Shown here: in pieces, positions 26,661-31,746 of the stretch
How positions within the stretch are numbered: position 1 is the first letter of the stretch
Layout: each line of letters starts with the position of its first letter
Assembly (NCBI GenBank): GCA_958295885.1
Contig: OY282380.1
Coordinates: 2,666,001 to 2,730,000, forward strand
Source of the DNA: Arenicellales bacterium
GTDB lineage: Bacteria > Pseudomonadota > Gammaproteobacteria > Arenicellales > JAJDZL01
Length of the DNA stretch: 64,000 nucleotides
Direction: 5' to 3'
The notes under the pieces: model-generated
Told to the model about the DNA's origin: nothing
Database searches by the model: none
What the model saw: only the letters and a program-made list of their open reading frames with translations
Made by a program: the position numbers and the translations under genes

Positions 26661-26951
26661 TCAGTCTGCTGGTGATAGCCGATTGACTTTAATTTGACTT
26701 TCGTTCTTCATTGCTTGCGCCATTTCATAACTGGCTTGCAGCCTATACCAAGTTTCCGCGCCACCACCAAAGGCTTTTTGGAGGCGGATCGCCATCACGG
26801 GCGAGATTCCGGCGCGGCAATTCACGATATCTGAAAGTTGTTTTCGACTGATCCCCAGTTGGCGCGCCGCTTCGGTAACACTAAGCCCCAACGGCTCCAG
26901 GCAATCGTATCGCACAGACAAACCTGGGTGAGGTGGATTTTTCATCGGCAT
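26661..26951 (-). CDS. higA: HigA-family antitoxin
   Basis: 96-aa XRE-type antitoxin: [20 protein letters not shown], then helix-turn-helix [20 protein letters not shown] and [20 protein letters not shown], which is the HigA/VapI signature. Second gene after the toxin, the order typical for HigBA. Intact. Confidence 0.85.
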
Positions 26952-26964
26952 TTCTCAAGTCCTC

Positions 26965-27243
26965 CTAGTGGTAATCGATCAAATCAACATCTTGGACATT
27001 GTCTCCTTCAAATCGAAAGATGATGCGCCAATTTCTCGATACTTTGACGGCCCAAAAACCCGCCAGATTCCCTTTTAAAGGATGAAGTGTGAATCCTGGA
27101 AGATTCATATCCTGTGCTTCTGATGCCTCATCAAGACGAGCAAGAATTCGTTTAATCTTCATAATGTGGAGGGGTGAAATTCGGCTGTGATCATCTTTTT
27201 CGTACAATCTCCTAAGAGCACGGTGGCGAAATCCGAGTATCAT
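26965..27243 (-). CDS. higB: HigB-family mRNA interferase toxin
   Basis: 92-aa RelE-superfamily toxin: MILGFRHRALRRLYEKDDHS, LHIMKIKRILARLDEASEAQ, LPGFTLHPLKGNLAGFWAV and NWRIIFRFEGDNVQDVDLIDYH. It cleaves mRNA at the ribosome in characterised homologues. Start 27243 gives the usual length; an ATG at 27267 in the same frame would add 8 residues. Intact. Confidence 0.85.
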   Translation of the reverse strand: MILGFRHRALRRLYEKDDHSRISPLHIMKIKRILARLDEASEAQDMNLPGFTLHPLKGNLAGFWAVKVSRNWRIIFRFEGDNVQDVDLIDYH

Positions 27244-27267
27244 CTGCCTATTGTAACCTATCACCAC

Positions 27268-27728: not shown

Positions 27729-27971
27729 ATGGAACTCGAACACAATCGCGGCGAGACTGCAACAGATAACCTGATTGACAGAAATCCAGAGATCCTGGGA
27801 GGGACGTCTGTGTTTGCCGGTACCAGAGTTCCGGTTCGATTTCTGCTGGAACATTTGGAAGCGGGCGACCACTTAGATGAATTCCTGGATGATTTTCCCT
27901 CCGTATCGCGAGAACATGCGGTGGCGGTGCTTGAATGTGCGGTAGCCGAGTTGGTAGATAACGCACATTGA
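27729..27971 (+). CDS. DUF433 antitoxin, copy 2
   Basis: 80-aa DUF433 protein (RNPEILGGTSVFAGTRVPVR then FLLEHLEAGDHLDEFLDDFP). Intact, with the same leader as copy 3 at 43258. Its partner toxin is reduced to about 15 codons. Confidence 0.8.
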   Translation: MELEHNRGETATDNLIDRNPEILGGTSVFAGTRVPVRFLLEHLEAGDHLDEFLDDFPSVSREHAVAVLECAVAELVDNAH

Positions 27972-28012
27972 GGTTTTACTTGACGAATCCACTCCGAGGC
28001 GACTTACCTTTC
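27967..28012 (+). pseudogene. DUF5615 toxin stub
   Basis: ATT GAG GTT TTA CTT GAC overlaps the DUF433 stop and reads IEVLLDESTPRRLTF before an IS110 fragment cuts it off. The first codon is ATT, as in copy 3. Confidence 0.6.
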
Positions 28013-28467
28013 TTATGTCCATTAACTGATTGTAATCACGCAACAATTGAAACAAACGCGAATGCGACTCGTCTTTGGTCGACAGCTGACGAAAAGCGTT
28101 CAGTTCCGTTCGCAGCGCATCAGCGAGCACCCAGGCGTCGCGGCGGTCATCCTTGGCTCCGACCGGTGAATGTCGATCTCGAAATCGATTCGACTGCAAA
28201 GGATTGATGCTATACACCTCAAAGCCGTCACTCAGTAAAGTGCTCACCACTGCGCCATGCGGGGTCTCAATGCCGACGCGCACCGCACTCGGTGTGCTTG
28301 CTGTCAGCTGCAGACACCACTGCACCAACTGCGTCAGACCGTCACCGCTGTGAACGAAACTTTGGTTGCCGAGCACTTTGCCATCGGCACCCATCACGCA
28401 TGCCTGGTGATGCTGCCGTCCCCAGTCAATTCCCATCATCCAAATCGTCTGTGATTCCACCATCTTC
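28012..28467 (-). pseudogene. IS110-family transposase N-terminal fragment
   Basis: DEDD half of an IS110 transposase: MMGIDWGRQHHQACVMGADG, GIETPHGAVVSTLL and VGAKDDRRDAWVLADALRTE. It lacks the C-terminal Transposase_20 domain and is fused out of context to the DUF433 module on its left. It is related to but distinct from the copy at 10030. Confidence 0.75.
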
Positions 28468-28515
28468 ATCCTCCTCAAACTTATTACAATTTGGCTATCA
28501 CTACATGGTATAGGC

Positions 28516-29009
28516 ATGCGATTCGCAACGAAATCACACGCCTGGTGCAGCAGCAAAGACAACTACCGGTGCTGATCATCGATGAAGCCCATCATCTGCG
28601 CAACGAAGTGCTCGAAGACCTGCGTCTTCTGACCAACTTCGCCATGGACTCAGAACCGCGCATGTGCCTGCTGCTGATCGGACTGACCGAACTGAGAAGA
28701 CGTCTGAACATGGGCGTGCACCAATCCCTCAGCCAGCGCCTGGTCATCCGACATCACTTCGGCGCGCTGAACCGCGACGAAACCGAACGCTATCTGCAGC
28801 ATCGGTTCAGCCTCGCCGGCGCCGCCGACAAGGTGCAGCTGTTCGAGCCCAACGCCATCGAAATGATGCACGCCCAAGCCCGCGGCATGCCCCGCAGGAA
28901 TCAACCGTCTGGCACATTATGCGCTGTCAGCCGCAGCGCAGGACCAGGCTCGATGCGTTACCTTGCAGCACATGACTCAAGCTGTCGAAGAGTGGCAGGC
29001 CTGAACCGG
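28516..29009 (+). pseudogene. ExeA/TniB-like ATPase, truncated second copy
   Basis: Nearly identical to 9307-9793, beginning after Walker A is lost, with LIIDEAHH retained and a one-base insertion near the end (CCCCGCAGGAATCAACC) that shifts the frame. Ends at CTGAACCGG, the target duplicated by the next IS. Confidence 0.8.
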
Positions 29010-31511
29010 CCAATGGCATTTACTTAGTGATAAATACGTGTTGACTTAATAGTACGCACCTCGCGGACGACTGTTTTCATTGAAATATGTTACTTTATGC
29101 TACTGGTTCGTCGATGCCTGAGGTTGATTTCGTTTACGAATCCATTTGTTTCGCGGCTGTTTCGATTGCCGCGCATAGGAACGATCAGGACGTTGTTTCT
29201 GACGTTGCCTGCTGATGCTGCTGACGATGGCATTGACCGTAGAAGCAATCAGTTCTGCCTGTCGCAGCACCAGCTGTTCCAGACTGCGGGCCATCACCTT
29301 CAGCGCATGCTTGAAATTCACCTGTTTTCTGTCTTCTTCGGGCGCACCCTGGATTCGATCTTCACTGTAGTTGGTGAAGATTCTCGTGAGCGTGATCAGC
29401 ACAAAATGCGCATACAGTTCCTGTTTGACGCCGCGTTCTGATTTGGCATGAAACTGCTCGATGCTCATCCATGATTTGGAAATCTTGTACATCTCCTCGA
29501 TGCCCCATCTTTGATGGTACAGATCAGATAACTCCGAGATCGGATAGCGCACTGGATCCTGCAAAGTGACCGCGAGCGTGTAGGTGGTGTCGGCATGGGT
29601 GTATTTCACCAGTCGCAGTTTCAGCGGCGGACATTTCACCTGCGCATGGCGGCGGCGGATGCGAGTCCGGATTTGCGCGGTTGGCTCCACCTCGATGATC
29701 TCATCGGTGCGCTCTGAGTCCATGAACCGGTCCATCGCCACGGTCATGTTTTTCTGCAGACGGAAGACTGCCTCCACACCTCGCAGCCAGTGCGCATGCA
29801 GCATCTCGTAGCTGTAATAACCGCGGTCATAGACCACGACGTCGTTTTCGTCCAGCTGCTTCAGATGCGTCAGCGCAAGCTTTCGTTCATTGCCATGCGA
29901 TGCCAGCTCAAAGTCAATTGGAACGCGCGCCTTGAGCTGATACAGACAGCTCACAAGTCCCTGCGGATAATGCGCCTTGTCATTGGGCGTGCGATAACTG
30001 TTTTTAAGCAGTTTCCGCGGCAGGTTGAGCCGGCTGCCGTCAACCGCATGCAGACGATGTCCCTGCCACAGAAAGTCCTTTCGCTGCGCTTCGGAGCGCT
30101 GCAGAATGCGCTGCTGCAGGACCTTGAAAACCTGCTCATCCAGCTTGGCGCGCGCCCGGCTCATGGCGGCCGCAGTGACCGGCTGTGGCTGTGGCAGGCG
30201 GATCTCCAAGTCGCGGCACTGCGCCCATAATTCGTCCAAACAGGTGGCATAACCCTGTCGATTGTCAGAAAACACCAGCCGAAAGATAAACAGCATCAAC
30301 AACATCGTGTCGATCACTCGCCGCCGAACCCGCCACTTTTCATCAAATTCCGCCGCTACTTCCGAGATTTCGCCGATCAGATGCTGCCACAGCTGCACGA
30401 ATGAATCCGAACTCGCCAGCGGCTTCGGCATTGCTGCCTGCGCGCGTTTTTTGCGCTTCGCACGAGCCTTTTCACCGTGCGCTAAAATCTCTCGAAAACC
30501 TTCTTCCAAAGGATACACATAGACACCTTTAGGGGTTTTTCCAGAACGCTTCTCGGTGGTGCCCAGATACTGCCAGTTGGCCGCCCGATAACTGCTTGCC
30601 TCAAAGCGCGTCTCATCCACAAACGTCTCAATCAGCACCGGCCGACAGCCATGCTGGCACTGCCAGTCCTGCGGCAGCTGCCGACACACCAGCGACAAGG
30701 CCTTGGAAGCGAGATTTTTCACCCGCACCCACGGAAAGATCAGAAACCGACTGTTGTTGACCGCCAAGTGCAGATGTTTCTTGTGTTTCTGATCCTGCCA
30801 GCCAACCCACACATCCCGACACGGCAGCGCCTTGACTGCATACTGAAACAGGAAACAGCCCAGTTTGCGACCCTGCCCGTCAACGATGAAATAACGCAGG
30901 TTCGCCCCGATCGGATGCCGGTATCCCAGATAATGATAACGCTCCACCCATTCGTTGAATTCCCCTGCCTGATCCGCAGAAGTCACCAGCTGCACAGAAA
31001 GCGGCATCAGCTCCGACAGCTCCGCCTGCAGCTCCGCCTGTTCTTCGGTGCGCGCCGTCAGCGCCAGCGGCCTGCTCTTGCCGCGCTTAAGATGCGACTG
31101 CTTCGGCGGCAGCTGCACAACGCCCAATTGTTCCAGTTCCTCCAGCAGCAGCAGCGCTGACTGGTAGCGATTGACACCCTTTGATGTGTGCCAGCCTAAA
31201 TGCTCACTGATCGTCTGCGCCAGCTCAGTCCGACTCAAATTCTGAAACCGCGAAACTGTCTGTTGAATCTCACCCAACTGTCTGCGGGTAAAACGATGAC
31301 CGAAAAATGTCGTTGACTTCAACTTCTTAATGCGCTCATCCACCGCTGATCTCCTGACAAAATGATCCTTACCTCTATTTTGACAGTACTGCACAAGAAA
31401 GTCAAATGCGGATGTGCAATTTTTTTACATCCCTCGATTTGCCCGCTATATCAATCTGTTGCCATCTCTACAAAAATCTGCAAATACATTTATCCTATGT
31501 TAATGCCATTG
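29010..31511 (-). mobile_element. IS4-type element encoding a DruA-transposase fusion
   Basis: 2502-bp element with 9-bp direct repeats CTGAACCGG (29001-29009 and 31512-31520) and ends CCAATGGCATTTAC / GTTAATGCCATTG. It sits just after the stop of the truncated ATPase gene. A single long gene fills it and is undamaged, so this is probably the youngest insertion in this part. Confidence 0.85.
29100..31343 (-). CDS. DruA-like (DUF4338) domain fused to IS4-type DDE transposase
   Basis: 747 aa. Residues about 1-300 match the DUF4338/DruA family: FGHRFTRRQLGEIQQTVSRF, WVERYHYLGYRH, AVNNSRFLIFPWVRVKNLAS and ETFVDETRFEASSYRAANWQ followed by YLGTTEKRSGKTPKGVYVYP. Residues about 330-690 form a DDE domain: LHAVDGSRLNLPR (Asp), VVVYDRGYYS (Asp) and YHQRWGIEEMYKISKSW, a perfect Y-x2-R-x3-E-x6-K motif. 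The tail is basic. The GTG start at 31343 has AGGAG 7 nt upstream; an in-frame GTG at 31394 is less likely. Confidence 0.8.
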   Translation of the reverse strand: MDERIKKLKSTTFFGHRFTRRQLGEIQQTVSRFQNLSRTELAQTISEHLGWHTSKGVNRYQSALLLLEELEQLGVVQLPPKQSHLKRGKSRPLALTARTEEQAELQAELSELMPLSVQLVTSADQAGEFNEWVERYHYLGYRHPIGANLRYFIVDGQGRKLGCFLFQYAVKALPCRDVWVGWQDQKHKKHLHLAVNNSRFLIFPWVRVKNLASKALSLVCRQLPQDWQCQHGCRPVLIETFVDETRFEASSYRAANWQYLGTTEKRSGKTPKGVYVYPLEEGFREILAHGEKARAKRKKRAQAAMPKPLASSDSFVQLWQHLIGEISEVAAEFDEKWRVRRRVIDTMLLMLFIFRLVFSDNRQGYATCLDELWAQCRDLEIRLPQPQPVTAAAMSRARAKLDEQVFKVLQQRILQRSEAQRKDFLWQGHRLHAVDGSRLNLPRKLLKNSYRTPNDKAHYPQGLVSCLYQLKARVPIDFELASHGNERKLALTHLKQLDENDVVVYDRGYYSYEMLHAHWLRGVEAVFRLQKNMTVAMDRFMDSERTDEIIEVEPTAQIRTRIRRRHAQVKCPPLKLRLVKYTHADTTYTLAVTLQDPVRYPISELSDLYHQRWGIEEMYKISKSWMSIEQFHAKSERGVKQELYAHFVLITLTRIFTNYSEDRIQGAPEEDRKQVNFKHALKVMARSLEQLVLRQAELIASTVNAIVSSISRQRQKQRPDRSYARQSKQPRNKWIRKRNQPQASTNQ

Positions 31512-31746
31512 CTGAACCGGCTGCCGCCATCCCAACCCAGATGGAGTGCCCGCTCCAGCTGGAATCTCTCTTCTGCCTCTCAAAACATCGCCAATATCCC
31601 TAGCTCCAGCCGCTGACGCACATCGCCGCCAGCCACGCTGCCTCGACTTTGAATCCGACAATTCTGTTGGAACAATTTGATCCATTGAAAAATTTCGTTC
31701 CGATTTAATTTGAATAAGCCGTTTCAACTTAATCTGGAATTCAACA
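31512..31746 (+). mobile_element. Right end of the second TniAB-like copy
   Basis: Nearly identical to 9790-10024 and ends GGAATTCAACA like the intact element. Together with 28516-29009 it shows a TniAB-like copy that lost its left two thirds. Confidence 0.8.

Follow-up and report, generated by a model that had tools for sequence, protein, structure and literature searches.

Insertion sequences of the IS4 family are recognized by inverted terminal repeats together with a target duplication of about 9 to 13 bp, and the DNA-binding domains of IS4/Tn5-type enzymes are usually N-terminal. Other described systems close to the locus analyzed here are Mom of phage Mu, which acylates adenine N6 (PMC7824862), the DruA protein of the Druantia anti-phage operon, and the DUF4338 (DruA) domain of DndF proteins, which has previously been called a GNAT domain in a study whose authors raised proteins as possible targets of fused GNATs (PMC10853773). 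In the literature searched, we found no relation drawn between DruA and Mom and no DruA/DUF4338 domain described in transposases, the latter a weak absence because most subscription papers lay outside the search. Databases already contain such proteins, named, for example, "ISAs1 family transposase" or "DUF4338 domain-containing protein."

The window, a stretch of 64,000 nucleotides, contains at positions 29011 to 31511 a 2,501-bp IS4-family insertion sequence whose gene encodes a winged-helix-like segment, a DruA domain with a GNAT fold, and a DDE transposase in one frame. This element is an IS4 member plus an extra domain, and its features in window coordinates are as follows.

29001-29010: target-site duplication, left copy CTGAACCGGC, 10 bp, same letters as 31512-31521
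29011-29027: left terminal inverted repeat CAATGGCATTTACTTAG, at the 3' end of the gene, 15 of 17 positions complementary to 31495-31511
29100-31394, minus strand: single uninterrupted open reading frame of 764 aa (winged-helix-like segment, DruA/GNAT domain, IS4 DDE transposase)
29391-30065, minus strand: DDE_Tnp_1 transposase domain with YREK motif, residues 444-668 (Pfam E 3.5e-22)
30477-31022, minus strand: GNAT-fold DruA domain, residues ~125-306 (from Pfam, the structural model, Foldseek, and the Mom profile match)
30552-31049, minus strand: Pfam DruA match (PF14236), residues 116-281 (E 3e-36)
31095-31313, minus strand: winged-helix-like N-terminal segment, residues ~28-100 (AlphaFold2 model, assigned by eye)
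31495-31511: right terminal inverted repeat, CAATGGCATTAACATAG on the minus strand, at the 5' end of the gene
31512-31521: target-site duplication, right copy CTGAACCGGC, same letters as 29001-29010

With terminal repeats complementary at 15 of 17 positions and a 10-bp duplication, the ends are those of an IS4-family element, and the other copies of this insertion sequence have the same ends. The first-pass annotation had put the target duplication at 9 bp, which is wrong by one base pair. It had also given the gene as intact and spanning 29100 to 31343; the gene is indeed intact, but 31343 is an internal GTG (codon 18), and the frame is open to 31394. The length of 764 aa is counted from the first GTG, at 31394, and the internal GTG is also a plausible start. 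One open frame of 764 codons excludes a frame error or stop between the two halves.

Beside the element, at 27873-29027, a piece of an IS110-type transposase (PF01548) adjoins a fragment of an AAA ATPase (PF13401), which makes the insertion site a patch of other mobile-element remains. Adjacent HigB-like toxin and HTH antitoxin genes lie at 26661-27267 on the minus strand and are likely a HigBA-type toxin-antitoxin pair.

The DruA match scores 125.5 bits against a gathering cutoff of 27, which, with its E-value, excludes a weak or chance similarity to DUF4338. An earlier assignment of the entire N-terminal 300 residues to this family named the right domain but overstated its extent, as only about 170 residues match, covering positions 34 to 218 of the 297 in the profile. 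The roughly 100 residues N-terminal of the match are a separate helical, winged-helix-like region, with helices at residues 37-49, 55-65, and 77-89 (AlphaFold2, pLDDT mostly 70 to 96), and the C-terminal part of the profile, found in Druantia DruA, is missing from the window protein. The C-terminal half of the protein bears out the description of a DDE transposase with a Y-x2-R-x3-E-x6-K motif, which reads YHQRWGIEEMYKISK. This half also matches NCBIfam transpos_IS4_1 (E 2.1e-50, 171.7 bits against a cutoff of 115) and contains two aspartate motifs, VDGSRLNLP and YDRGYYS. Its identity rests on these profiles, since its structure was not predictable with a shallow alignment (mean pLDDT of 51 in the full-length prediction).

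The genome, a single contig of 4.42 Mb, carries seven intact copies of the IS4 fusion that are 98 to 100% identical, an eighth copy with one stop, and older fragments. The 10-bp duplication is kept at four copies (the window copy and three others) and not at the copies L102, L104, and L106, located at genome positions ~29139, 3233407, and 4348307, respectively. The E-values, the seven near-identical intact copies, and the duplications at four of them together exclude chance as an explanation of the fusion, and near-identical copies with duplications suggest that the window element was recently active. At L104, the left 10-bp flank is the right flank of L106 (cttggctggg), and the right flank is the left flank of L102 (ctgtaccacg). 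This swapping of flanks among the three copies points to recombination between them and hence to chromosome rearrangement. Relative to a 95% identical copy, dN/dS was 0.20 for the DruA part and 0.23 for the DDE part; values for cross-genome DruA pairs with unsaturated dS were 0.09 to 0.18, and the range across comparisons was 0.09 to 0.33. Judged by these ratios, the DruA part is under purifying selection.

Searching the genome from which the window comes gave 65 matches, mostly to the DruA part. When copies were compared and their ends read, five families of insertion sequences with the domain could be delimited, so the window fusion is not a single oddity.

Family A: the IS4 fusion (window element), 10-bp target duplication
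Family B: IS66 element of 2,792 bp, tnpC followed by a separate DruA gene, 8-bp target duplication
Family C: 2,425 bp, DruA/Tn5-type fusion of 783 aa, 7-bp target duplication
Family D: 2,114 bp, DruA/ISAs1 fusion of 592 aa, 9-bp target duplication
Family E: another ISAs1 type, its reading frame broken in the copies that were read, 10-bp target duplication

Some copies in these families lack the target duplication. The tnpC stop and the DruA start of family B overlap as ATGA; on a rough reading of its copies, DruA is intact in about 13 of 20 and tnpC in about 5, but tnpC is twice as long, so the difference need not reflect selective retention of DruA in decayed copies. At L074:9482-14028 (genome ~1924482-1929028), a family C element lies inside a family D element whose outer ends keep a 10-bp duplication, a nested insertion of two DruA-bearing elements.

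Beyond this genome, we fetched 79 loci from named genomes, chosen by IS66-type DruA motifs and many of them from one genome, so that proportions among them are uninformative. They came from Pseudomonadota, Thermodesulfobacteriota, Acidobacteriota, Bacteroidota, Planctomycetota, Nitrospirota, Bacillota, Lentisphaerota, Verrucomicrobia, and an ANME-2 archaeon. In this IS66-biased sample, one query detected an IS66 transposase at 63 of the 79 loci. Other partners of DruA elsewhere were Tn5-type transposases (fused and adjacent), ISAs1, an ISLre2-like UPF0236 protein, and a further DDE_Tnp_1 type. The IS66 locus at L282:1102-2802 has TnpB and then DruA, indicating that DruA is no simple replacement for the classical IS66 accessory gene and that the two can occur together. 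"Candidatus Accumulibacter" sp. ACC003 contains 79 DruA-domain copies, which fall into several multicopy groups, with frames of 286, 372, and 324 aa and fusions of 616 to 778 aa. Among the viral contigs searched, no relative was confirmed. As judged from these gene arrangements, it is well supported that the DruA domain is a recurrent transposon part, fused to or encoded beside transposases of at least six families.

A tree built from 75 GNAT cores places the window DruA, with strong support (100/96), as sister to that of an IS66 element from a genome of the same genus, which indicates that the domain moves between transposon families. One of two related DruA proteins just outside that pair precedes an ISAs1-like open reading frame, and the well-supported branches require IS66 association to have changed at least seven times and Tn5-type association at least three times. 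On plasmids, the closest relative of the C-terminal half is an IS4 transposase of Robbsia andropogonis, an annotated protein without DruA; such IS4 transposases thus exist without the domain. Druantia-type and transposon-type DruA form separate groups joined by long branches in this unrooted tree, and the tree program warns that such branches may attract each other, so the direction of descent between the groups is not readable. The first-pass annotation had asked whether DruA-type domains originated as transposon modules or still act as such, and had proposed a DUF4338 phylogeny. That they still act as such is borne out by their presence in many insertion-sequence families, often in multiple copies, and by purifying selection; the tree documents swapping among these families, and DruA may also have originated there.

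Structure prediction of the DruA half, which had likewise been proposed, was informative. AlphaFold2 with a 44-sequence alignment gave a model with a mean pLDDT of 88.3, in which a three-helix winged-helix-like segment is followed by an alpha/beta domain. A Foldseek search of the PDB with this model returned overwhelmingly GNAT acyltransferases (probability of 1.00), including the RNA cytidine acetyltransferases TmcA and NAT10 and, among the best solved structures, RimI and SpeG, which are protein or small-molecule acetyltransferases. Solved structures searched by sequence yielded no credible relative. According to the model, the DruA domain has a GNAT acyltransferase fold.

Within this fold, a profile of transposon-type DruA matched a profile of eleven Mom proteins with an E of 3.6e-11 (score of 81). 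Profiles of ordinary GNATs from the same genome scored at most 17.5, and 30 column-shuffled Mom alignments scored at most 21.5, which excludes ordinary GNAT similarity as the cause of the match. With the Pfam Mom model (PF25680), the window protein scored 16 bits over residues 148-292, and the best DruA protein (L116) scored 21.6 bits, both below the gathering cutoff of 27.1. Druantia-type DruA did not match Mom directly (profile E of 0.21), and its match to transposon-type DruA had an E of 2.8e-16. A Mom match in the transposon type only fits, without proving, the idea that the transposon type is nearer the ancestral form.

A joint alignment placed HY, N-x-x-S, F-x-D, and Y-x-A-x-N at positions common to DruA and Mom. 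Among 70 nonredundant transposon-type DruA proteins, R216 is invariant; H154, W199, S230, E256, and W274 are each conserved in 69, R193 in 68, and Y269 in 67. Position 260 is D in Mom and D, E, or Q in DruA, and Tyr155 is variable among Tn5- and ISAs1-linked DruA proteins. Substitutions in Mom at the counterparts of H154, Y155, D260, and Y269 are reported to abolish activity. The canonical (Q/R)xxGx(G/A) acyl-CoA loop is replaced across the DruA family by xxxNLAS, and the window insertion-sequence family lacks two otherwise near-invariant glycines, 266 and 282. Profile and conserved residues together point to a specific relationship between transposon-type DruA and the Mom family.

Our preferred explanation, with a probability of roughly 0.42, is that the locus is a recently active IS4 insertion sequence carrying a shared GNAT module that works as a Mom-like base modifier. 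The DDE part would carry out the cut-and-paste steps at the terminal repeats, and the GNAT part would be a DNA-acting accessory module that is shared and swapped among unrelated insertion sequences. Its activity would most likely be acyl-CoA-dependent base modification of the Mom kind, acylation of adenine N6. The substrate could be element or target DNA, delivered by the winged helix and the transposase, and the benefit might be that excised or transferred DNA is shielded from nucleases or that the ends are marked. We are nearly certain of the anatomy and of the module being shared among transposons. The catalytic step, read from sequence comparison, is tentative and somewhat short of an even bet: NLAS in the acyl-CoA loop, the variation at position 260, and the loss of glycines 266 and 282 cast doubt on Mom-like catalysis, and the conserved residues could also serve DNA binding. 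We consider less likely than not the wider proposition that a Mom-like domain for base modification is shared and exchanged by at least six insertion-sequence families, that transposases thereby modify DNA chemically in the course of transposition or for the survival of the element, and that Druantia DruA is a divergent relative of this transposon-borne enzyme.

The best rival is that the DruA domain is a noncatalytic GNAT that, with the winged helix, forms a purely DNA-binding or architectural module of the transposase, acting in end recognition, target capture, or transpososome assembly. This reading, to which we give clearly less than even odds, accommodates the atypical acyl-CoA loop, the adjoining winged-helix-like segment, and a fusion at the N terminus, the usual site of DNA-binding domains in IS4/Tn5-type enzymes, but it has to contend with IS66 elements, where DruA has its own, translationally coupled gene, and with Tn5-type fusions in which the transposase retains its DNA-binding domain. 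A sequence-specific end-binder would also not easily pass between families whose ends are unrelated, and the conserved polar residues correspond to those of Mom. We consider it unlikely that the domain is an ordinary GNAT that regulates transposition by acylating a protein, such as the transposase or a host factor, since its sequence profile is like that of Mom and unlike those of ordinary GNATs, even though the fold, the RimI and SpeG matches, and the proposal that fused GNATs target proteins (PMC10853773) agree with such a role.

Searches by family, in relatives and across the phylum, yielded 34 transposon-type and 14 Druantia-type DruA loci. A recognizable transposase lay within 1.2 kb of DruA at 16 of the 34 and at none of the 14 (Fisher P = 0.0016; P = 0.008 once repeated proteins were removed). 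Given these numbers of loci, a DruA/DUF4338 match used alone as a Druantia marker will take in insertion-sequence proteins. The PADLOC Druantia models did not match the window protein and barely or not at all matched IS66 and Tn5-type DruA, whereas Druantia-type controls reached an E of 1.4e-211. The seven neighboring open reading frames, which are IS110, AAA ATPase, HigBA-like, and unassigned ones, gave no PADLOC match and include no defense genes; with no DruE helicase either, a Druantia operon is excluded. It is very improbable that a Druantia-type anti-phage gene rides here as cargo that protects the host or keeps other elements out, because the shared Pfam family and the profile match to Druantia-type DruA are set against the PADLOC results, neighbors free of defense genes, the transposase association, and the separate groups in the tree. 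A Druantia-like operon was seen on the Nitrosococcus watsonii plasmid pNWAT01 (18676-29425, L236), in which DruA is accompanied by a very large DEAD/DEAH helicase and two hypothetical proteins.

Base-modification chemistry is so far known mainly from phages and defense systems; if the domain modifies DNA, small transposons would be equipped with it as well, and Druantia DruA would gain an enzymatic hypothesis.

Compared with known systems, the element shares with IS4-family insertion sequences the DDE domain, the YREK motif, CAAT.. terminal repeats, and a 10-bp duplication, and window residues 341-751 are 43% identical to the Robbsia andropogonis transposase; unlike these relatives, the window protein has about 330 extra N-terminal residues with the DruA/GNAT domain. 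Families B to E resemble it in having a transposon-type DruA domain, terminal repeats, target duplications, and several copies, and differ in transposase family, ends, and duplication lengths, with DruA a separate gene in IS66. Druantia DruA belongs to the same Pfam family and has a GNAT core with RD-x-x-IGW; the window DruA lacks its N- and C-terminal parts, keeps Mom-like motifs that are absent from it, and is linked to a transposase rather than to DruB-E. The DndF-linked DUF4338 is likewise a GNAT domain fused as an N-terminal module, but in a defense ATPase context and with no transposase (PMC10853773). Mom has in common with the window DruA a GNAT-type core, the four shared motifs, the profile match, and a departure from the canonical acyl-CoA loop; it is, however, a stand-alone phage protein, while DruA has the RD-x-x-IGW insert region and sits on transposons.
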